Origin: Solibacillus merdavium
Lineage (GTDB): Bacteria; Bacillota; Bacilli; Bacillales_A; Planococcaceae
Length of the DNA stretch: 35,037 nucleotides
NCBI RefSeq assembly: GCF_014836935.1
Contig: NZ_JACSPW010000023.1
Span: 1-35,037 of the forward strand
Direction of reading: 5' to 3'
The stretch's first letter is position 1. The number at the start of each line of letters is the position of its first letter. The translations under genes were made by a program, and so were the position numbers. Below, one piece after another: positions 87-26,749 of this stretch. The notes beneath the pieces are model-generated. The model did no database searches. It was given only the letters and a program-made list of their open reading frames with translations, and had not been told where the DNA came from.

Positions 87-836
87 ATGAAACTTGACCA
101 TCTAGTAATAAATGTAGATCCAAATTACCAGCAAGAAAGTGAGGAAGTTCAACAAATTAAAAAAGCTGGCCTTCCCTATAATGTAAAAAAGGGTAAAGGT
201 ACTAAAGGGTTTAAAGCAACTAATATTTGGACAGGAAATGAATACTTTGAATTAATCACCATTACTAATAACGATGGCGGCGGATGGAGGCCTGAATGGG
301 TTCATGCCTATAATTCGGGACATAGAGGATTAATTTGCCTAATGATTGATGTAAATAATATTGATGCTATTGTTCAGCGTTTACAAAAAGAAGGAATTTT
401 GATTTCCAATCCTGAAAGAATTAAGATTGAATTTTTCTTTAAGTTATTTTCAAAAACGATGCCCTGGCAAAATAGCTTTTTGAATTTTTTCGAAAATATC
501 CCCCTTCAAATTGGTTTTCAACAAATGGATAGTGAAAAAATCCGAAAAGGGTTTGAAAAATATATGGTTCCTAATTCTAAAGAGAATAACATATCTGGCA
601 TTACACAAATTCATATTGCAGGCGACTTTACTATTTCCGACTTCCAAATGTTAAGAACTGTTTTTGAGCAAACACTAGATAATGAAAATCAACTAATAGT
701 CCAGTTAGAAAATTCCCAAAAAGTTATATTTGAAAAAGCTAAAGACTATTCTATAAAAGTCACATTAAAAAACGATATTAGTTCCTTTATTATGGAAACA
801 TGTAAAATTGAAGATATTTTAATTAACTTTGAATAA
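87..836 (+). CDS. VOC/glyoxalase-like protein
   Basis: 249-aa protein starting MKLDHLVINV, the usual opening of vicinal-oxygen-chelate (glyoxalase/bleomycin-resistance-like) proteins. The early HLVI strand, the GNEYFELI segment near residues 50-57 and the HRGLICLMIDVNNIDAIVQRL stretch around 80-100 fit the repeating beta-alpha-beta-beta-beta module. The second half (about 110-249) is more divergent, rich in Phe and Lys, and resembles the long Glyoxalase_3-type proteins. The ATG is preceded by GAGGGAGTGATCC, an acceptable ribosome binding site. No signal peptide or membrane segment is visible, so it should be cytosolic. The substrate cannot be inferred and no operon partner is visible. The family call is from motif appearance only. 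Confidence 0.6.
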   Translation: MKLDHLVINVDPNYQQESEEVQQIKKAGLPYNVKKGKGTKGFKATNIWTGNEYFELITITNNDGGGWRPEWVHAYNSGHRGLICLMIDVNNIDAIVQRLQKEGILISNPERIKIEFFFKLFSKTMPWQNSFLNFFENIPLQIGFQQMDSEKIRKGFEKYMVPNSKENNISGITQIHIAGDFTISDFQMLRTVFEQTLDNENQLIVQLENSQKVIFEKAKDYSIKVTLKNDISSFIMETCKIEDILINFE

Positions 837-953
837 TCTATAAAACTAATTACCTTATTACAAGTTATCTAGTTCTCCCCCCTTAAATACTTGCAACAAG
901 CTAGACGTCCCCTTTTAGTAAGGTTGTTATATAATAAAAAAAGAGGTGAGTAA

Positions 954-1430
954 ATGTTTTTTAGATCTAAATTAATCAAAAATGACAAGAAATATAGTGC
1001 TGAAATGTTATTTAAAGATGTGTCATCTGAAAAATGGGATAAAGACAATTTAACAAAAGCTAATTTAGATTTTTCAATAGATAGTGTTCGTCTCGTTAAT
1101 GAATATGCTGATCGATTAATTCAAACAGAATTCGGACAGCAGCTGTTAAAAGAACATCATGATAATTTGATAACACGCATCGGTGCCTATGTAGGGGAAG
1201 TAATTAAACATCACAAAGATGGTCAATATCGCTGGTTTGATTTTAACTCTATAAGAGAAAATACGGTGCATTTAAATAACTATTCAATAAGTGTACAAGA
1301 TGAGTCTGTTCTTTATTCTAAAAAAATGGATGATGTATTGTGCCCTATCTATGAGGTGAAGCAATATTTTGATGGGAAATCGAAATATTCCAATTTTTTG
1401 GAATATGTAGAAGTTACTATTAAAAAATAG
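954..1430 (+). CDS. Hypothetical protein, 158 aa
   Basis: Not recognised with confidence. The ATG follows AAGAGGTGAG at good spacing, so translation is credible. The protein is soluble and highly charged. A central stretch, LITRIGAYVGEVIKHHKDGQYRWFDF in two parts (about residues 78-103), has the GAY-GEVI pattern seen in several small DUF families of Gram-positive bacteria. The end alternates hydrophobic and charged residues (YVEVTIKK), suggesting a terminal beta strand. It stands alone between two other orphan genes. An immunity-like or regulatory protein is possible, but nothing here decides it. Confidence 0.5.
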   Translation: MFFRSKLIKNDKKYSAEMLFKDVSSEKWDKDNLTKANLDFSIDSVRLVNEYADRLIQTEFGQQLLKEHHDNLITRIGAYVGEVIKHHKDGQYRWFDFNSIRENTVHLNNYSISVQDESVLYSKKMDDVLCPIYEVKQYFDGKSKYSNFLEYVEVTIKK

Positions 1431-4450: not shown

Positions 4451-4480
4451 ATAATACAATATTTTTCAATTGGAATTCAA
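4451..4480 (-). promoter_or_regulatory. Probable SigA promoter of tsuA-tusA
   Basis: On the minus strand TTGAAT and TATTAT are 18 bases apart, ending about 42 bases before the TTG start. The match to the vegetative consensus is fair. The rest of the 285-bp gap up to 4693 is AT-rich, with a small AAAAAG/CTTTTT hairpin near 4650 and nothing else recognisable. Confidence 0.5.
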
Positions 4481-4693
4481 GCCTTTTGATTAAATATTTG
4501 TTATCTTATTAATTTAGTAGGTTTTAACATCAATTAAATATCCTTATTCTACTCCCAAAAAAGAACCATCATTTTTTACTGACATATGATACAAAGCAAT
4601 ATATTCTTCACATCGTGGCTTGAAGCATGTAATAACCTTCTAGAACAATGCAAAAAGTGTGACTTTTTCTTTCTTTATCAAAATTTAAAGTAG

Positions 4694-5398
4694 GTGAAAC
4701 AAATAAAAAATTCCTATTTAGAACTTCTCGCAGAACTTGGTATTGGTGGTGCACACCCTGGCGGAATTAAGCTAACAGAAGAAATATTAAAAAGCGAAAA
4801 TATTAACAGTACTTGTCACGTTTTAGATGCTGGCTGTGGTACTGGTCAAACAGCAGCTTACTTGTCACAAACTTTCCAAGCTAATGTGACAGCGCTTGAT
4901 TTTAATTCGACAATGGTTGCAAAGGCCAAACATAGAATGAAGATTAATAATTTACCTGTAGAAATTATAGAAGGCTCCATTGAAGATATCCCCTTACCGA
5001 ATCATCACTTTGATTTTATTATTTCTGAATCCGTCATTTCATTTGTTAATAAACCAAAAGCCATAAGTGAGATTTATCGCATATTAAAAAATGGCGGCCG
5101 GTTCATTGCTGTTGAGCCAACGTTGAACGAACGCCTTGACGTTACCCAAGAGCAAGAAATCATGCAGTTTTATGGTCTTGATTCCCTACTCATGGAAAAG
5201 GACTGGGCGGAATTATTAAAACAGATTGGCTTTAAAAATATTCAAATACAGCATCATACCACTATTGAATCGGAACCCGATTTTCATTACTCCAATGAAA
5301 TTGATCCAGTGCTATACGACGTCATGAAAAAACATTTGGAAATCATCTCAAAATACCAAGAAACTTTTAGTTACCGAGTTTATACATGTACAAAATAA
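4694..5398 (+). CDS. Class I SAM-dependent methyltransferase
   Basis: 234 aa. Motif I reads HVLDAGCGTG (about residues 42-51), followed by the acidic strand end TALDFN around 70 and SIEDIPLPNHHFDFIIS near 95-110, as in UbiE-like small-molecule methyltransferases. The N-terminal AHPGG-LT segment is common in uncharacterised Bacillales enzymes. The only usable start is GTG at 4694; the ribosome binding site is poor (AAAG only), so the start is less certain than the domain. The gene stands alone and ends at a clear terminator. The substrate is unknown; a small metabolite or quinone-like molecule is likelier than nucleic acid, given the close UbiE-type pattern. Confidence 0.8.
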   Translation: MKQIKNSYLELLAELGIGGAHPGGIKLTEEILKSENINSTCHVLDAGCGTGQTAAYLSQTFQANVTALDFNSTMVAKAKHRMKINNLPVEIIEGSIEDIPLPNHHFDFIISESVISFVNKPKAISEIYRILKNGGRFIAVEPTLNERLDVTQEQEIMQFYGLDSLLMEKDWAELLKQIGFKNIQIQHHTTIESEPDFHYSNEIDPVLYDVMKKHLEIISKYQETFSYRVYTCTK

Positions 5399-5400
5399 AA

Positions 5401-5430
5401 TAAAGCCACTTTGTCTAAGTGGCTTTATCT
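5401..5430 (+). terminator. Terminator of the methyltransferase gene
   Basis: TAAAGCCACT, loop TTGTC (with adjacent T-A pairing), then AAGTGGCTTTA form a strong stem just after the stop codon, followed by a T-rich stretch. Confidence 0.8.
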
Positions 5431-5606
5431 TATTTATCGATGGATTGGATCATATAACAACCGATAAAATTACTTTCTTAGCAGAACAGTCAGCTGAAGT
5501 ACGTACATTTCTAACATACCAAGATGATGTCACCAGCCAATCCTTAGATAATTTATCGTCATTAGCAGCGTTATTTCATTCTAAAGGAACAGGAGTGATT
5601 CAATAA
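5430..5606 (+). pseudogene. Remnant, possible IstA C-terminal tail
   Basis: A 58-codon open frame without a start codon runs to TAA at 5604-5606, where the stop overlaps the ATG of an IstB-like remnant. The overlap and the ACAGGAGTG ribosome binding site just before it are how istA and istB join in IS21-family elements. The residues themselves (for example TDKITFLAEQ, NLSSLAALFH) are not diagnostic. The call rests on position and on the absence of a start. Confidence 0.35.
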
Positions 5607-5907: not shown

Positions 5908-6117
5908 TTATTCTAGAGGAACTTCACATTCGCAATGCTCATATCTTCTTTCACATAAATTCTTTATCTTAGTAGAAGCTTTTACACTTTCTAATAAAAG
6001 GTCATATATTGCTTCTTTCTCTATAGCACCAATATTTTCACTTTGTAGCATTTTCGAGTAGAAGTTTGTCGTTTTTCTCGACTTACAATAACAATTCATC
6101 AATATACTGATATCCAT
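5908..6117 (-). CDS. Small cysteine-rich protein, 69 aa
   Basis: Not recognised. Starting at ATG 6117 (AAGGGGG seven bases upstream; the GTG at 6123 is too close to it) the product is MDISILMNCYCKSRK... and has five cysteines: a CYC pair near the N-terminus, NLCERR, and HCEC near the C-terminus. The middle is predicted helical and charged, and there is no signal peptide or membrane segment. The cysteine spacing could bind a metal or form redox pairs. It is the last gene of a leftward unit; the yvrJ-like gene ends 12 bases upstream and its stop lies next to this gene's ribosome binding site, so the two are coupled. Confidence 0.6.
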   Translation of the reverse strand: MDISILMNCYCKSRKTTNFYSKMLQSENIGAIEKEAIYDLLLESVKASTKIKNLCERRYEHCECEVPLE

Positions 6118-6129
6118 ATTCACGCCCCC

Positions 6130-6291
6130 TTATTTTTTAAGGTTTTTTATGACAGTGGATAGTTCCATTATGACTTTTTCTAAATGATCTAGTTTACGTT
6201 CAAACCGAACAAACAGGTATACCGTTATCGCAATCGGGAATCCAAAATTCCCTATTAAACTAATCCAAATAGGAATATTTTCTTGAGTCAT
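6130..6291 (-). CDS. yvrJ: YvrJ-family small protein, 53 aa
   Basis: The product reads MTQENIPIWISLIGNFGFPI, then AITVYLFVRF and ERKLDHLEKV. This is the YvrJ-family pattern: a short N-terminus, a hydrophobic segment beginning I-S-x-x-G-N-x-GFPI, then a charged helix containing a KLD core. The hydrophobic part (about residues 8-29) could span the membrane once. AGGGGGATAAA precedes the ATG. In B. subtilis yvrJ lies beside sigO-rsoA and, as far as I recall, is read by SigO; here it is about 0.7 kb from a SigO-RsoA-like pair, which supports both calls. The function of the family is unknown to me. Confidence 0.75.
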   Translation of the reverse strand: MTQENIPIWISLIGNFGFPIAITVYLFVRFERKLDHLEKVIMELSTVIKNLKK

Positions 6292-6407
6292 TTTATCCCC
6301 CTCTCTCGTCTTGTATCATCACCATCAAAACATCAATATAAGTAAGATGGAGACCTCCTGTATAAGGTTGAGAGGTTTCTTGCTGTACAAAAATACCTGA
6401 TTGATAG

Positions 6408-6478
6408 AGGCGGAGCCCGGAATCTAACCGAGGTTCAAGGATTTGCAGTCCTTTGCCTTACTGCTTGGCTACACCGCC
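6408..6478 (-). tRNA. tRNA-Cys(GCA)-like gene, degenerate
   Basis: The 71-base minus-strand sequence begins GGCGGTGTAGCCAAG, and the anticodon loop is CTGCAAA, giving anticodon GCA (cysteine). The acceptor stem pairs at six of seven positions (one T-T mismatch). The anticodon stem AAGGA/TCCTT is perfect. Two features are off: the D loop has CAG where GG is expected, and the T loop reads TTAGATT, losing the universal C56. CCA is not encoded. Overall length equals a normal bacterial tRNA-Cys without CCA. It lies between a glutaredoxin gene and the yvrJ-like gene, in the same direction. It may be a mobile-element type tRNA or a decaying one. Confidence 0.7.
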
Positions 6479-6546: not shown

Positions 6547-6789
6547 TTAAATAGTGTCCAACAGCTGGTCAGGGTTAAAACCTTGAATATGCACCGTATC
6601 CATTCCTTCTGTTTTCACTTCAATAAATGGGATACCTTGCACATTTAAATCCTTTAAATATGCTTTATTTTGTGGTTTATCTATATTCTTGAATTCATAC
6701 GGAATGTTTTCTTTGTCTAACCAATCTTTAGCGTTAATACAATGTACACACCAATCCGCCCCATAGATTATTACTTCTGTTTTTGACAT
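6547..6789 (-). CDS. Glutaredoxin-family protein (CVHC)
   Basis: 80 aa, thioredoxin fold of glutaredoxin size. The active site CVHC lies near residues 14-17 in GADWCVHCINAKDWL, and the cis-proline segment is VQGIPFIEV around 50-58. It should act in the cytosol as a dithiol-disulfide reductase, with bacilliredoxin, mycothiol or thioredoxin-like partners rather than glutathione in a Bacillota host (inference). AGGAGGAGATTAAG precedes the ATG. It is the first gene of a leftward unit that continues into a tRNA-Cys-like gene, a yvrJ-like gene and a Cys-rich protein. Its upstream region carries the same promoter-like motif as the sigma gene it diverges from. Confidence 0.82.
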   Translation of the reverse strand: MSKTEVIIYGADWCVHCINAKDWLDKENIPYEFKNIDKPQNKAYLKDLNVQGIPFIEVKTEGMDTVHIQGFNPDQLLDTI

Positions 6790-6810: not shown

Positions 6811-6842
6811 TATAAAGAGAATGAAATCAGAATAGAGTCAAA
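6811..6842 (-). promoter_or_regulatory. Candidate alternative-sigma promoter of grx
   Basis: Minus strand: TTTGACT, then a 13-base spacer, then ATTCTCTTTATA. The spacer and downstream box do not fit a SigA promoter (no TATAAT 16-18 bases after TTGACT). The same layout occurs at 6911-6944 and, less fully, at 9672-9704. Confidence 0.5.
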
Positions 6843-6879
6843 GAAAGATTGTAAAAAAATAAAACTTTATATAAAATGA

Positions 6880-6903
6880 GAACGTAACACAGAACATACG
6901 TTC
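6880..6903. promoter_or_regulatory. 24-bp palindrome between divergent promoters
   Basis: GAACGTA and TACGTTC are perfect inverted halves separated by ten bases. It lies between the divergent promoter-like motifs of the glutaredoxin and sigma genes, ending eight bases upstream of the latter motif. It is a plausible operator for a dimeric regulator. Confidence 0.45.
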
Positions 6904-6910
6904 CTATATT

Positions 6911-6944
6911 TTTGACTATTTGTGTATTTTATTCTCTTTAATAT
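6911..6944 (+). promoter_or_regulatory. Candidate autoregulated promoter of sigO-rsoA
   Basis: TTTGACTATTTGT, then ATTTTATTCTCTTTAATA. It shares TTTGACT and ATTCTCTTTA at nearly the same spacing with the motif before the divergent glutaredoxin gene. No good SigA -10 box is present at the proper distance. Confidence 0.5.
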
Positions 6945-6963
6945 GTAAAAAGGGGGGATGAAA

Positions 6964-7536
6964 TTGGAGCCTAGTTATTCGTTCACAACTCAAGAAAGAG
7001 AAAAACTAAAAGAACCTATCGTATTAAATTTCTTAAAGGTTGAGGCCAACTATCAAAAATTTTCAGCATTCATTGAATCGCCAAGCCCAGAGATAAAAAA
7101 TGAACTGGATTCCGCTTTTAAAGCCTATTACAAACGGGCCAAAGTAATCGCTTATATCGACAAGCTCATACATTACTATTCCATTGACCTAGATAAGAGA
7201 ATTAATAAGTACCGTGCAACACAACAACTCATTCTAGACAACCCTATAAGCGAAAACGAAAGCGGAAACACAACTATGAAGGATACCCTGCCATCCTATG
7301 AACAACCTATGTTAGATTCCTCCCAGCTCCCTTTGGAGGAATTATTCGAAGACTTGAATCTATATAAAGCTTGGAACTCTCTTTCTGATAAACAAAAAAG
7401 GGTACTCACCCTCAAATACCAGTACAATTTAAAGGATGTAGAAATAGCGGATATCATATGCGAAACCAAGCAAGTCATTTCCTATAACCACAATAAAGCC
7501 ATAAAAGTTCTAAGACAATCCGTAAAGGATAGTTAG
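6964..7536 (+). CDS. sigO: SigO-like sigma subunit (region 4 protein)
   Basis: About 190 aa. The C-terminal 60 residues (LYKAWNSLSDKQKRVLTLKY, then DVEIADIICETKQVISYNHNKAIKVLRQ) form a sigma region 4 with its helix-turn-helix. The N-terminal 120 residues are helical and charged and show no region 2. A separate region-2-like protein follows immediately. This split is the layout of the B. subtilis two-subunit sigma factor SigO-RsoA. AGGGGGG touches the ATG at 6958, leaving no spacing, but sits six bases before the TTG at 6964, which I prefer. A candidate autoregulatory promoter lies at 6911. A phage-type small sigma factor is the alternative reading. Confidence 0.68.
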   Translation: MEPSYSFTTQEREKLKEPIVLNFLKVEANYQKFSAFIESPSPEIKNELDSAFKAYYKRAKVIAYIDKLIHYYSIDLDKRINKYRATQQLILDNPISENESGNTTMKDTLPSYEQPMLDSSQLPLEELFEDLNLYKAWNSLSDKQKRVLTLKYQYNLKDVEIADIICETKQVISYNHNKAIKVLRQSVKDS

Positions 7537-7547
7537 GAGGGATTTCT

Positions 7548-7748
7548 ATTTGTAAAATTGATGATGTTGCCTGTGAAAAAATAATTGATGATTTCGAACT
7601 TAGAATAAAGAAGGTTGTCAGTAATGTCCCGCATAATGACCAGGAAGATATGAAGCAAGAAATCAGAATTAAAATCATCGAGAAAATGAAAATGCTCGAT
7701 GAATTAGAAGTACCAGGATTTTTAGAATTCATTAATAAAAAGAAATAA
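7548..7748 (+). CDS. rsoA: RsoA-like sigma region 2 co-subunit, probable ATT start
   Basis: The 66-codon open frame contains VPHNDQEDMKQEIRIKIIEK (residues 28-47), which resembles sigma region 2 (acidic patch, then a QEI-x-I-K-I helix that contacts core RNA polymerase). The frame has no ATG, GTG or TTG before codon 35. AGGAGGG at 7535-7541 is seven bases from an ATT at 7548, so an ATT start is the simplest reading. Its ribosome binding site overlaps the stop of the region-4 subunit, implying coupled translation. The pair would jointly form one sigma activity, as SigO and RsoA do in B. subtilis. The short length and AT-rich codons are normal for the area. Confidence 0.6.
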   Translation: MCKIDDVACEKIIDDFELRIKKVVSNVPHNDQEDMKQEIRIKIIEKMKMLDELEVPGFLEFINKKK

Positions 7749-7796
7749 ACCTGCCTCTATTCTTTCTCTGCATGTTCAACAAGAGTACAACAAAAG

Positions 7797-7822
7797 CCCC
7801 ACTCTGATTTAGAGTGGGGTTT
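7797..7822 (+). terminator. Terminator of sigO-rsoA
   Basis: CCCCACTCT, loop GATTT, AGAGTGGGG and TTT follow the rsoA-like stop by about 50 bases. The stem is strong; the T run is short. The stretch from 7823 to 7983 shows nothing recognisable. Confidence 0.7.
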
Positions 7823-7983
7823 CATCGTCATGAAAGAGGGAGACGTGCGCGACAATTTCAAACCAAGAGATTTGAACACCCGCTGATCCTCCCAAAGTTA
7901 TTCTATATTTGATACATAACTATTTGTTGTCTGAACTTTTTATGGTTCGTTTATTTCTTTATTACCTATTTCTATAAAAGAAC

Positions 7984-8181
7984 TTGCCCCATCCCATACA
8001 ACACATTTGTAGCTATTTAAAGGACCCGAACCTCTTAAAAGACCTAGATGACAAAAAGTATTCAGGCAATGTTAAAGTAGAACTAGAAAAATACATGAAA
8101 TATTACAACACGAAACGAATCAAGGCAAAATTAAAACTGAGTCCGGTGCAATACCGAACTCAGTTCACCCAAGCTGCCTAG
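7984..8181 (+). pseudogene. IS3/IS150-type transposase C-terminal remnant
   Basis: From about 8053 the frame reads KYSGNVKVELEKYMKYYN, then TKRIKAKLKLSPVQYRT. The YYN-x-KRI-x-xKL-x-x-SPVQYR signature closes the integrase domain (OrfB) of IS3-family, IS150-group transposases. Only about 43 codons remain; the DDE catalytic core and OrfA are absent. The first 23 codons have no family resemblance and probably mark the deletion junction. Confidence 0.8.
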
Positions 8182-8193
8182 ATGAAATAACCG

Positions 8194-8218
8194 TGTCTAA
8201 CTTTTAGGGGTCACTTCA
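8194..8218. repeat. Right terminal inverted repeat of the IS3 remnant
   Basis: TGTCTAACTTTTAGGGG followed by TCACTTCA lies 12 bases after the transposase stop, matching the usual end sequence of IS150-group elements. No left end was found. The region to 8361 otherwise holds only a weak promoter candidate for the next gene. Confidence 0.6.
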
Positions 8219-8361
8219 AGCAGGCTGTGTTTTTTAATAGTACCTTGCTCTATTTACATAAACAGTCTTTTTACATAGGACATTTTCCTGTTGTTCATTG
8301 ATGTCACTTATAGTATTCTGTAGGTCATTATACTAGAAATTACCAGGGTGGTGGAGATTTA

Positions 8362-8649
8362 ATGAAAAACAATTATAATATCATCGTGCATGTTGTCAAC
8401 TTACTCCTTTTAGGAGCGATCGGTTTCCTCGCGTTTTTCTCTGTGGTAAATATTAGCCCAGTCCAAGAATCTGACATGTTTAAATTCGGTCTTATTGTTT
8501 TTCTGCTCGCCATGTGGGCAGTTAATTACTGGTTCCAATACAAGAAGCAAAAATGGATTCTACCAATAGCCGGTACCGTCCTTTACATCGCCATCGTTTT
8601 GTTCGTCTTGGGGATAGTTATGCCATTCCTTAACGAAATTGTTTATTAA
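8362..8649 (+). CDS. Small membrane protein, three TM segments
   Basis: 95 aa with hydrophobic spans at about residues 9-29, 41-58 and 66-90, separated by a short loop with acidic residues (SPVQESDMF) and a basic WFQYKKQKW cytoplasmic-type loop. Not recognised as a named family. GGTGGTGGAG precedes the ATG. The stop codon overlaps that of the convergent phospholipase-like gene by two bases, so the pair has kept a tight junction. B. subtilis SigO-RsoA is controlled by the membrane protein YvrL; this gene is the only candidate nearby for a similar job, but that is guesswork from position. Confidence 0.65.
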   Translation: MKNNYNIIVHVVNLLLLGAIGFLAFFSVVNISPVQESDMFKFGLIVFLLAMWAVNYWFQYKKQKWILPIAGTVLYIAIVLFVLGIVMPFLNEIVY

Positions 8650-9374
8650 ATGAACCCGCAACCTTTTAATAACGCGTCAGCTCGGATTCCAGTACGGATT
8701 GTAGTATCACCAGGTCCTTTTAATCCATCCATACATTTAATTAACTTTTTATGAGCGTCACATACTGAAATCCTAGGCATTGGACCTTGGAGATCCCTGT
8801 CATGCGTTACACAACAACGGTCAATCGCATTGATTGGGGTTCCTCCACCAGCGTTATTATAAATGCCACACGATTTCCCGCAATGCTCGTAGCGTTGACC
8901 TTCAAAGTAACAACAAGAACCAGAACTGATACAGCTGGTTGGATCATACATTATTTCTGCTAAGAGTTCTTCGTGCTCCTCCGCTACTTCTGGAATCTTT
9001 ACATAATCCTTATAGACATCATGCATTATCTCTACTGGTTGTTCTAAATTAAGTTCCCCATTTACATATTCCTTAGTGACAACTTTTGCACCGTTTTGCA
9101 CCCAAACCTGCACCACTTCTGCTGTGTCTGTTTGACTTTCCGACTTCGCTTCATATTGTTTTAAGATTACCTGGGCCTTGTTACCAAAGCTCATTAGCTT
9201 ATTGATTTCTATTACGGTACTTCCTTCATCTGAATGCGTAACCTTCACAATATCTGTATTTTCCGGCTCGCCCAGATTTAATTCGCTTAAAACGTCTGTA
9301 AACGCTGCTTTCGCAAAAACATCTTCATACTGTTCTTTTTCGTAACTCGGGATAAAACGTGAAAACTTATTCAT
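8646..9374 (-). CDS. Phospholipase A2-like Cys-rich protein
   Basis: 242 aa from ATG 9374 (AGAGGTG six bases upstream; the GTG three codons earlier lacks a site). Residues 1-140 are acidic and cysteine-free. The last 95 residues hold ten cysteines and the segment GGGTPINAIDRCCVTHDRD (about 176-194). This matches the phospholipase A2 catalytic core: a glycine-rich calcium-loop-like stretch, then D-x-CC-x-x-HD with H191-D192. No signal peptide is visible, so the N-terminal part may act as a prodomain or the protein may leave by another route. It follows a glutaredoxin-like gene by 27 bases in the same direction. Substrate and activity are untested inference. Confidence 0.65.
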   Translation of the reverse strand: MNKFSRFIPSYEKEQYEDVFAKAAFTDVLSELNLGEPENTDIVKVTHSDEGSTVIEINKLMSFGNKAQVILKQYEAKSESQTDTAEVVQVWVQNGAKVVTKEYVNGELNLEQPVEIMHDVYKDYVKIPEVAEEHEELLAEIMYDPTSCISSGSCCYFEGQRYEHCGKSCGIYNNAGGGTPINAIDRCCVTHDRDLQGPMPRISVCDAHKKLIKCMDGLKGPGDTTIRTGIRADALLKGCGFI

Positions 9375-9401
9375 TCCAGTCACCTCTATTAGTATTTTTT
9401 G

Positions 9402-9641
9402 TTAATTTTGGGAGTTGAAGCTCATGAGAGCAGTTTTTACTCTCTCATTGAAGCCTGCGTATGGCTTATTGTAAATCAAAGTAAACGGAACCCCTTGACC
9501 TTTCAGTTCCATCAACTCATCAAAATGCTTACGGTCAGAGACATCTTTCTCGGTATATTCAATATGGTTCCTTTTCAGAAAGTCCTTTAACTGGCCACTA
9601 TACCCACAACGCGCTTGCGTATACACGGTTACGTCATTCAT
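9402..9641 (-). CDS. Glutaredoxin-like protein with CGYS site
   Basis: 79 aa starting MNDVTVYTQARCGYSGQLKDFL, with the cis-proline segment QGVPFTLIYN near residues 52-61. The active site is CGYS: the first cysteine is kept and the second is serine, as in monothiol glutaredoxins. A start further upstream would lengthen it by 29 residues with no homology, while GGGGGGAAGAA lies right before ATG 9641. It heads a two-gene unit with the Cys-rich phospholipase-like protein, so a role in that protein's thiol state is reasonable but unproven. The promoter-like motif at 9672-9704 resembles the one before the sigma gene. Confidence 0.78.
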   Translation of the reverse strand: MNDVTVYTQARCGYSGQLKDFLKRNHIEYTEKDVSDRKHFDELMELKGQGVPFTLIYNKPYAGFNERVKTALMSFNSQN

Positions 9642-9671
9642 TTCTTCCCCCCCTTGTAATACAAAAGAGAT

Positions 9672-9704
9672 GCATAACCCTGAATAATCAAACGAATAGT
9701 CAAA
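9672..9704 (-). promoter_or_regulatory. Candidate alternative-sigma promoter
   Basis: Minus strand: TTTGACTATTCGT, then GATTATTCAGGGTTATG. TTTGACTATT-GT is nearly identical to the sigma-gene motif at 6911, and an ATTC follows at similar spacing; the downstream box is less conserved. Confidence 0.42.
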
Positions 9705-9779: not shown

Positions 9780-10103
9780 CTAGTTACTCATAACCCCAGT
9801 ACCGGTTACTCGGACATCATCCGTCGATTTCTCAAATCTTAGCCGATAAGCCGTACCAACCATATCTGTAAACTTTACCGTTTTCGTGCCGTTCCGTGGA
9901 AATGAAGCTGTTTTTACTGTAAACCACATACGCTGAGCTTGCGCCTGCAATTGAACAACGTATTCATCTGATCGACCACCTGAATTGTTAGCTTTCGAAT
10001 TGAGCGTCAACGTAATTGTTTGGTCGTTACCCTTATCATTAAACGTCCGACTCTGCCCCACTAATGTCTCTTTAAAATCATAAGTAAGATTATAACTTGC
10101 CAT
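9780..10103 (-). CDS. Small beta-rich protein, 107 aa
   Basis: Not recognised. The ATG at 10103 is preferred because AGGAG lies seven bases upstream; the in-frame ATG at 10109 is too close to it. The sequence alternates Thr/Val/Leu with polar residues throughout (QTITLTLNSK, EYVVQLQAQ, RMWFTVKTASF, DDVRVTGTGVM), so an all-beta sandwich is likely. There are no cysteines, no signal peptide and no membrane segment. It lies upstream of the glutaredoxin-like and phospholipase-like genes in the same direction, 138 bases away with a hairpin between. A structural or carbohydrate/lipid-binding role is conceivable; nothing decides it. Confidence 0.6.
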   Translation of the reverse strand: MASYNLTYDFKETLVGQSRTFNDKGNDQTITLTLNSKANNSGGRSDEYVVQLQAQAQRMWFTVKTASFPRNGTKTVKFTDMVGTAYRLRFEKSTDDVRVTGTGVMSN

Positions 10104-10394
10104 ATTCATTCTCCTTTTTTCTTATTATTGTGTTGCTATTTAAGAAAGAGGGTCGAACAAGGCTTTTATCAAAATCCCAGCCAATTTATATGTATTTTAG
10201 TGGTAGAAACGGTGTGAGAGATGAGCAGCAAGCACTGTCAAAAAGTGAGGGACTATGAGGAATTAAAATTAATAATTAAAGAGTAAGTTGTGCAGAATGT
10301 TTAAAAAGAATTTATTATGCTATAAGTAGTCCACTGTCCATTAAAATGACAGTTGACTTGCTGAAATTATAATCAATTATTAGGATGGTGAATC

Positions 10395-10823: not shown

Positions 10824-10845
10824 TTGTACAATTACATAACGTGTA

Positions 10846-11003
10846 AGAAAAGGTACGCACATTGTTGTGCGTTTAAAAGGGAAGTTGGTGCGAATCCAAC
10901 ACTGTCCCGCAACTGTATTACGGAGCAACTCTTAAAAAGCCACTGTTAAATAACGGGAAGGTAAGAGACGCGTTGATGTTAAGTCAGGAGACCTGCCTTT
11001 TTC
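10846..11003 (+). ncRNA. Cobalamin riboswitch upstream of metE
   Basis: The conserved parts are present in order: the P1 strand GAAAAGG, AAAAGGGAA, GGTGCGAATCC, the CTGTCCCGCAACTGTA core, GCCACTG, CGGGAAGG and the closing AGTCAGGAGACCTGCCT. P1 closes with CCTTTTTC. A hairpin at 11010-11041 (ACACC..CCTA/TAGG..GGTGT) and a terminator at 11100-11137 form the expression platform. By analogy with known B12 control of metE, bound cobalamin should stop expression of the B12-independent enzyme. Confidence 0.93.
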
Positions 11004-11099
11004 TAGTACACACCCGATACCTACGTGGAAATAGGTGGTGTTCTGTGCGAATAAAGCGTCAATTATAGACGTTTATTTTACTATGCATAGATAAGTCCT

Positions 11100-13607: not shown

Positions 13608-13628
13608 TAAGAATAACTAAATTTTACT

Positions 13629-13788
13629 GGAAAAGGTTTAAATTTAACATTTAATTAAAAGGGAAGAACGGTGTGAATCCGTCGCTGTCCCGCAACTGTG
13701 ATTCGGAGCAACTCACAATAAACCACTATTGCCGAAAATGGGAAGGTGTGAGGAGCGTTGATGATAAGCCAGGAGACCTGCCTTTTCA
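13629..13788 (+). ncRNA. Second cobalamin riboswitch
   Basis: P1 pairs GAAAAGG with CCTTTTC. Between them are AAAAGGGAA, GGTGTGAATCC, the CGCTGTCCCGCAACTGTG core, ACCACTATTGCC, GGGAAGG and AAGCCAGGAGACCTGCC. Every core element of the class is intact. A hairpin homologous to that of the metE leader follows at 13794-13823, but here it contains a ribosome binding site. No usual B12-related gene lies downstream. Confidence 0.92.
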
Positions 13789-13793
13789 AGTAC

Positions 13794-13823
13794 AAACCAT
13801 TAACCTACGCGGATAGGAGGTTT
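13794..13823 (+). promoter_or_regulatory. Hairpin covering a ribosome binding site
   Basis: AAACC, five bases, CCTA, loop CGCGGA, TAGG, A, GGTTT. The 3' half contains AGGAGG, the ribosome binding site of the 36-codon ORF, so it is paired in this fold. The metE leader has the same hairpin shape at 11010-11041. Confidence 0.6.
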
Positions 13824-26352: not shown

Positions 26353-26749
26353 GCATCAATAATCAATAAGCCATGTTTTGTTCCTAAGTACTCAAACAGC
26401 TTTCGCCTCGTACGATTAGGTAGTAATCATCTATCTACGGTCAAAATGACCGTCCCTCCATCCGTTCAATTCCTTCTGGAGAGTGCCCCTACCATAATTT
26501 GGGTTTCTCACTCATGGGGTTTACCTCGTTCCACCTTATAGCTTTCACTATAAGCTCCGTCACTGTGGCACTTTCAGGAAGTTTCGTCCATATCTAAAAG
26601 ACTTAGGAGTTCCTTCCGCCGTCAAGAGAAGCTCTCTTGCCTTACCTTATTTTTTCAGTAAGCACGAACACTACGGGCATCTCAGCACCGTGTGAGCATG
26701 GACTTTCCTCTACGATACGAAATCGCAGCGATTACTCGAATATTGATGT
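26353..26749 (-). ncRNA. rnpB: RNase P RNA, B type
   Basis: The minus strand closely matches the B. subtilis RNA in all conserved parts: GTAATCGCTGCG, TAGAGGAAAGTCCATGCTC, ACGGTGCTGAGATGCCCGTA, AAAGTGCCACAGTGACG, GGTGGAACGAGGTAAACCCC, GAGAAACCCAAATT, GTAGATAGATGATTACTACC, TACGAGG and GAACAAAACATGGCTTA. P1 pairs CATCAATA with TATTGATG, which sets both ends to within a few bases. The RNA (about 397 nt) is the catalytic subunit that removes the 5' leader of tRNA precursors. Several short reading frames cross it and are not genes. Confidence 0.96.

Follow-up and report, generated by a model that had tools for sequence, protein, structure and literature searches.

Which regulator acts on the promoter-like motif that recurs around a SigO-like sigma gene in the genome of Solibacillus merdavium, what switches this regulator on and what does it serve? 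These questions are raised by a 35,037-nt stretch (contig NZ_JACSPW010000023.1, positions 1 to 35,037, forward strand; hereafter the window) in which copies of the motif precede the sigma gene, two glutaredoxin genes, the second followed by a phospholipase-like gene, and a gene for a beta-rich protein. SigO-RsoA, a single pair encoded on the chromosome, is the usual illustration of two-subunit sigma factors. Copies of the motif very probably act as promoters for a sigma factor of this two-subunit, SigO-RsoA-like kind, whose genes lie at positions 6958-7748. We consider it likely that the locus is a LexA-gated, self-amplifying cassette of the SigO-RsoA type, probably serving a bacteriocin-like, cysteine-rich phospholipase. 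The observations behind these proposals are the motif, its placement and its conservation, a conserved LexA-type box, the gene content and an association with tRNA-Cys genes.

The putative sigma factor is encoded by two neighbouring genes:

6958..7536, plus strand: SigO-like sigma gene with a C-terminal sigma region 4; ATG at 6958, with TTG at 6964 a better fit to the ribosome-binding site
7548..7748, plus strand: RsoA-like gene, partner resembling sigma region 2; match to NF041489 (sigO_reg_RsoA), E-value 1.7e-13

The 192-residue sigma protein matches NCBIfam models and solved sigma factors best in its C-terminal part, and Pfam finds region 4 only, weakly (0.04, below the cut-off). The RsoA-like protein scores 50.4 bits against NF041489 (48.2 bits in the genome search), for a cut-off of 100. 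Because it falls below this NCBIfam equivalog cut-off, we regard it as a relative of RsoA, and SigO-RsoA orthology in the strict sense was rejected. It is 45% identical to the RsoA protein of locus L222, where oxdC and rsiO adjoin sigO, with a conserved EDxxQE core. A profile of the RsoA-like family gave no match among solved structures. The RsoA-like open reading frame (ORF) has no ATG, GTG or TTG start; translation probably begins at an ATT codon at 7548, placed 7 nt behind AGGAGG, which would make it a rare AUU start.

Comparison of four upstream regions yielded the common form TTTGA-N18-CTCTTT, found at the following places:

6911..6939, plus strand: predicted autoregulatory, SigO-type promoter of the sigma gene, TTTGACTATTTGTGTATTTTATTCTCTTT; the same motif precedes sigma in loci L090 and L179, and the family shows a spacing peak
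6814..6842, minus strand: predicted SigO-type promoter of glutaredoxin gene grx1, probably also serving the downstream tRNA-Cys, yvrJ and ORF71; in L179 the motif also precedes a divergent glutaredoxin gene
9664..9692, minus strand: predicted SigO-type promoter shared by grx2 and its phospholipase-like neighbour, from motif match and start-codon distance
10145..10173, minus strand: predicted SigO-type promoter of the beta-rich gene, from motif match and start-codon distance

The sites end 24 nt (sigma), 24 nt (grx1), 22 nt (grx2/phospholipase-like) and 41 nt (beta-rich gene) ahead of the start codon, and each of these starts has a ribosome-binding site. The first two sites are as the initial annotation described them, TTTGACT-N13-ATTCTCTTTA at 6911 (plus strand) and 6842 (minus strand), and they are the only matches to TTGACT-N11..13-ATTCTCTT in the 3.78-Mb genome. 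A third site, which had been placed at 9704 (minus strand), does exist, with its register off by 12 nt: the TTTGACTATTCGT found there lacks an adequate second half with the expected spacing, and the correctly spaced site, TTTGATTATTCAGGGTTATGCATCTCTTT (9664-9692, minus strand), begins 12 nt further downstream. The fourth, proposed near 10242, reads TTTGACAGTGCTTGCTGCTCATCTCTC and is not a match; a site that does match, at 10145-10173 (minus strand), lies nearer the gene. Both registers were discarded by comparison with the common form, so that the motif as first described holds for two sites and had to be realigned for the other two.

In the window, the common form has four exact matches for a shuffle mean of 0.08, and none of 100 shuffles reached four, a figure that is partly post hoc because the register was chosen after the four regions had been seen. 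TTTGACT by itself is not enriched in the window (7 occurrences, 7.5 expected). Genome-wide, nine matches to the common form were found, four of them within this 3.4-kb stretch; a reversed-pattern control gave 3 forward and 4 reverse, so the matches elsewhere are compatible with chance. The five located outside the window were set aside as chance-like, although one of them, which lies 76 nt ahead of a 203-residue ORF, may be an exception.

As the register was chosen post hoc, two relatives serve as an independent test. The motif in the form found in the window occurs three times at the Sporosarcina luteola locus L090 (0.02 expected) and three times at the Bacillus arachidis plasmid locus L179 (0.04 expected). 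The L090 sites precede the sigma gene, a 67-residue ORF upstream of a tRNA-Cys gene, and a phospholipase A2 (PLA2)-like gene; those of L179 precede the sigma gene, a glutaredoxin gene and a 69-residue ORF. The 67- and 69-residue ORFs were compared with ORF71 as possible relatives and rejected, as they resemble each other and an ORF of pBS72 instead. These two ORFs (L090, 2651-2854, minus strand; L179, 3695-3904, minus strand) form, with one of L180 (7155-7352, plus strand), another family of small ORFs containing cysteine, 65-69 residues long and unrelated to ORF71, whose L090 and L179 members sit directly behind a promoter of the window type. Very cysteine-rich small ORFs also occur in these sister cassettes, with 6 Cys in 54 residues (L090, 1248-1412, minus strand) and 8 Cys in 58 residues (L179, 2678-2854, minus strand).

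For the family as a whole, we collected 109 distinct loci, namely the window, 40 loci from related genomes and 80 from named contigs, minus 12 duplicates whose sigma sequence was identical to that of another locus (121 reduced to 109). The 40 were fetched out of 42 places beyond the window with E-values ≤5e-11 in the related-genome search, weaker places being left out. The contig scan provided 80 loci from 159 matched stretches, plasmid loci were read in 10 of 27 records, and one locus (L155) has just 141 bp of upstream sequence. Of the 109 loci, 107 contain an RsoA-like ORF and 94 a YvrJ ORF, with glutaredoxin and ORF71 found in 13 and 17, respectively. Upstream of the sigma gene, GGTT and [CT][ACT]CTTTA are spaced by 24 nt in 33/109 loci, for a background of 0.8, and other spacings occur in at most 3. 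When heads were matched strictly and duplicates taken out, sites with the 24-nt spacing were seen before 42/122 sigma, 8/23 glutaredoxin, 17/104 YvrJ, 5/18 PLA2-like, 4/22 S8-peptidase and 9/21 tRNA-Cys genes. The corresponding means for other spacings are 0.73 (sigma), 0.27 (glutaredoxin), 0.57 (YvrJ), 0.23 (PLA2-like) and 0.20 (S8), with maxima of 4, 2, 9, 3 and 3, respectively, and at most 1 for tRNA-Cys. By its own terms, the proposal of the initial annotation would have been refuted had the motif not recurred beside homologous genes; it does recur, as the spacing peak of the family and the identical motif of L090 and L179 show.

What might switch the sigma gene on is suggested by a second element and a possible basal promoter, both upstream of the autoregulatory site:

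6892..6903, unstranded: SOS (LexA) box GAACATACGTTC; the TTTGA of the sigma promoter follows 7 nt downstream
6849..6877, plus strand: possible, weak SigA promoter TTGTAA-17-TAAAAT, upstream of the sigma gene and of the SOS box

The box is the one exact match to GAACN4GTTC in the window, and boxes of the same type precede the genome's own lexA gene. Among the 109 loci, 70 have the exact box in the 300 bp ahead of the sigma domain, and 80 do if one mismatch is allowed, for an exact-box expectation of 0.0038 per locus, or 0.4 over all. Eleven other arrangements of the half-sites (scrambled palindromes) were found in 0-3 loci and other gap lengths in 0-1. The exact box remains in 19 of the 47 representatives at 50% identity, and it is present in all 10 plasmid loci that were read.

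Some further arrangements of this element were seen. The S. merdavium genome has a second sigma-YvrJ-RsoA set (L031, G000:C33:165973-166470) with a GAACN4GTTC box of its own, GAACGAAAGTTC, and this gene order is kept in several genomes of the genus. At L090, rsoA (766-969, minus strand) lies apart from sigma, with a LexA-like box carrying one mismatch about 30 bp before it. Such a split, with a box for rsoA itself, would be a natural two-input arrangement.

From these elements we infer LexA binding, activity of the sigma pair, an order of events and the functions of all the products. In the uninduced cell, LexA bound to GAACATACGTTC (6892-6903) would keep the sigma operon off by blocking the possible SigA promoter. 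Upon DNA damage, removal of LexA would let the basal promoter yield some sigma and RsoA, which together would open their own TTTGA-N18-CTCTTT promoter and generate positive feedback. The pair would then open the promoters of the grx1/tRNA-Cys/yvrJ/ORF71 unit, of the grx2/phospholipase-like unit and of the beta-rich gene. The output would probably be a bacteriocin-like, cysteine-rich phospholipase, whose synthesis the extra tRNA-Cys and the glutaredoxins might support and whose release might involve the holin-like YvrJ protein.

The promoters could also be autoregulated in the SigO manner but respond to envelope or acid stress, as for SigO of Bacillus subtilis, with the SOS box incidental in this strain. 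SigO is described as responsive to acid stress and induced by cell-wall antibiotics (PMC10141391). The locus resembles SigO-RsoA (YvrI-YvrHa) of B. subtilis in its neighbouring genes for sigma4-like and sigma2-like proteins, its adjoining yvrJ and its promoter directed at the sigma gene itself. The true sigO loci L222, L223 and L224, whose RsoA proteins score above the cut-off, have a similar layout, with [AG]GTTTAC...CAYTTA before the divergent sigO and yvrJ genes, 22-24 nt apart. They lack the exact LexA box. Two oxdC upstream regions in genomes of that kind carry GTTGAC...CACTTA with nearly the same spacing, and at L222 an oxalate decarboxylase gene and the gene for the anti-sigma factor RsiO, both above their cut-offs, neighbour sigO. 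This layout without a box favours a stress inducer. The window departs from it in several respects, however: it has a LexA box, the -10 half of its promoters is CTCTTT and not CAYTTA, and its RsoA-like protein is below the equivalog cut-off, unlike those of L222, L223 and L224. The cargo differs as well. The known SigO-RsoA operons of B. subtilis are oxdC-yvrL, yvrJ and yvrI-yvrHa (PMC8103513), whereas the window has glutaredoxins, tRNA-Cys and a PLA2-like protein; against the 35-kb window, the portion of the genome searched, OxdC and RsiO/YvrL of L222 gave only a 22-residue tblastn match (E-value 0.82). With the exact box beside sigma in 70/109 loci and in 10/10 of the plasmid loci read, a stress inducer with an incidental box appears unlikely.

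The circuit proposed here, LexA gating followed by self-amplification, has counterparts in other systems: the order of steps that we consider most likely follows the logic shown for SigN and described for the UviA plasmids, with a different sigma family. SigN (ZpdN) of plasmid pBS32 has a LexA-repressed SigA promoter and a self-activated promoter (PMC6751061), so that the likeness is one of circuit logic. It differs in being weakly homologous to extracytoplasmic function sigma factors and in having another regulon, and the part of that source at hand mentions no second subunit (PMC6751061). In Clostridium perfringens, bacteriocin BCN5 of plasmid pIP404 is SOS-induced, with a LexA site, a putative alternative sigma factor UviA and a small neighbour, UviB (PMC4459074, PMC10467148). 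UviA is a sigma factor of the TcdR type, unlike that of the window, and tRNA or PLA2-like cargo is not mentioned in the available portions of these sources (PMC4459074, PMC10467148).

The genes that the sigma pair might control are the following:

6547..6789, minus strand: glutaredoxin 1 (PF00462, 2.2e-9)
6407..6478, minus strand: tRNA-Cys (GCA) of the grx1 unit, between grx1 and yvrJ (ARAGORN, Rfam)
6130..6291, minus strand: YvrJ-family small membrane protein, holin-like (PF12841, 6.1e-17, above the cut-off; PHROG holin, 5e-5)
5908..6123, minus strand: ORF71, small cysteine-containing protein
9402..9647, minus strand: glutaredoxin 2, start at 9647 (PF00462, 6.3e-9)
8646..9383, minus strand: cysteine-rich PLA2-like protein of 245 residues, with CCxxHD and glycine-rich loop motifs
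9780..10109, minus strand: beta-rich gene of the initial annotation, behind the fourth promoter, its kind unassigned by family searches

The PLA2-like protein carries two hallmarks of the secreted-type PLA2 superfamily, a catalytic CCxxHD motif and a glycine-rich calcium loop. Its CC and HD residues are invariant in 11 relatives, and a profile of these relatives matches solved PLA2 structures (best E-value 7.8e-9); Pfam PLA2 models score below their cut-off on the protein. Eleven plasmid records have a PLA2-like relative, all among the 27 that have a sigma relative, with the two genes 0.4-4.3 kb apart. S8 peptidases or an amidase are present in other cassettes. In L044, a single open frame (4470-5597, plus strand) gives hits to the S8-peptidase profile as well as to that of ORF71 and might be a fusion. 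No family match was found for the beta-rich protein in Pfam, NCBIfam or PHROGs. PADLOC gave no match for seven proteins of the locus, and a defence-system identity was therefore rejected. Megacin A-216 of Bacillus megaterium is an inducible phospholipase A2 bacteriocin and resembles the proposed cargo in that a PLA2-type protein is made by an inducible system of a Bacillus; none of the Priestia/B. megaterium plasmid records matched the PLA2-like protein of the window.

The tRNA-Cys gene is a recurrent companion of the family. In 119 loci there are 23 distinct tRNA genes: 21 for tRNA-Cys, one for tRNA-Ser and one for tRNA-Arg. A site with the 24-nt spacing lies 51-57 nt ahead of the mature 5' end in ten of the cassette tRNA-Cys genes under the loose pattern and in nine under the strict one. 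Since loci L097 and L107 share part of a contig, their common tRNA-Cys and PLA2-like genes were counted once and L097 was dropped from the co-occurrence test. In the resulting 118 loci, tRNA-Cys and PLA2-like genes, each present in 19, occur together in 11 (Fisher test, p = 3e-6 without correction for relatedness). The S. merdavium genome has another tRNA-Cys gene, inside an ordinary tRNA cluster.

Two glutaredoxins, a tRNA-Cys and cysteine-rich products would also suit a redox-stress regulon under the same regulator, in place of a bacteriocin or lysis cassette. This we find rather improbable, since a holin-like protein, a PLA2-like protein, S8 peptidases and an amidase on plasmids, and SOS boxes occur together with them. 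Similarity to PLA2, the holin-like YvrJ, carriage on plasmids and the SOS boxes lead us to propose that the cargo is a bacteriocin.

Sigma relatives were found in 61/151 related genomes at an E-value of 1e-3, and in 37 at 1e-10; the weaker ones may be other sigma factors. They were also found in 27 plasmid records, seven of them from B. subtilis, and none of these seven has the size of pBS32, roughly 84 kb. The claim of the initial annotation that such two-subunit pairs are known only from a few Bacilli does not fit this breadth of sequence relatives, and its interpretation was incomplete in that the SOS box, tRNA-Cys, YvrJ and phospholipase-like cargo had been overlooked as a recurring cassette. 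Its central proposal, a pair of the SigO-RsoA type whose promoter is autoregulatory and which has target promoters nearby, is supported. It is strengthened by these analyses and extended to what would be an SOS-linked SigO-RsoA variant with tRNA-Cys in its probable regulon.

Sigma relatives are absent from 50,697 phage records, and none was confirmed in viral contigs, so an identity as a phage regulator was rejected. The pair might still have regulated a mobile element now in decay, or a prophage of which a remnant is left, the shared sites being relics without present function. Its homologs on plasmids are compatible with such an origin, as are the damaged-looking tRNA-Cys gene and a frame at 7984-8181 (plus strand) that resembles, by eye, the C-terminal remnant of an IS3-type transposase. 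Nevertheless, the protein frames listed above are open and the four sites keep their exact spacing and a good distance to start codons. Together with the lack of phage relatives, this makes the relic explanation very unlikely in our opinion.

Several observations weigh against a LexA-gated cassette devoted to a phospholipase, in addition to the lack of the box at the true sigO loci. The exact box is absent from 39/109 loci, and from 29 even with one mismatch. Over the whole genome, the SOS-box core shows no enrichment (24 occurrences, 26 for the reversed control), so the meaning given to the box rests on position and conservation; both the box counts and the Fisher test treat related loci as independent, several of them being close relatives. 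About two thirds of the sigma genes have no strict 24-nt site, and with looser heads the YvrJ, PLA2-like and S8 genes are not clearly above other spacings. Pairs resembling SigA promoters occur in the region at chance density (16, with 15.7 expected), which is why we call that at 6849..6877 weak. The RsoA-like gene depends on its ATT start. As for the tRNA-Cys gene of the window, it has no promoter site of its own. Its acceptor stem contains a T.T mismatch, and its T-loop has an A where other cassette copies have C, which suggests that the gene is possibly decaying, with a score still above the Rfam threshold. The tRNA of the Virgibacillus cassette L098 is regular. For the phospholipase-like protein, the structure predicted from its single sequence could not be used (mean predicted local distance difference test score of 39), and the beta-rich protein has no relatives in the other 150 genomes searched or in plasmids.

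Taken together, the loci suggest a wide family of two-subunit sigma factors wired to the SOS response, on plasmids as well as chromosomes, that shares a single promoter grammar through which its targets can be searched for. A tRNA gene under an alternative sigma factor beside cysteine-rich products would be an unusual case in which decoding capacity is induced together with the client protein. In searches of open-licence papers, the original SigO papers not among them, we found no prior statement of an SOS-wired family or of a sigma-driven tRNA. A more far-reaching scenario, which we put forward tentatively, is that of an SOS cassette of Bacillales plasmids and chromosomes whose own two-subunit sigma factor transcribes a dedicated tRNA-Cys for decoding a very cysteine-rich, phospholipase-type bacteriocin produced upon DNA damage. 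On this view, SigO-RsoA of B. subtilis might represent a branch which, once domesticated, gave up the SOS switch and came to control oxdC.

Other features of the window lie between or beyond these genes. A 95-residue membrane-like protein (8362-8649, plus strand) has no family match above the cut-off, and a perfect TTGACA-16-TATAAT lies antisense at the start of its ORF (8399-8372, minus strand). Rfam searches identified a class B RNase P RNA (26362-26743, minus strand) and two cobalamin riboswitches (10834-11014 and 13617-13799, both plus strand), the first of which precedes a gene that, from its protein sequence, we take to be metE-like.

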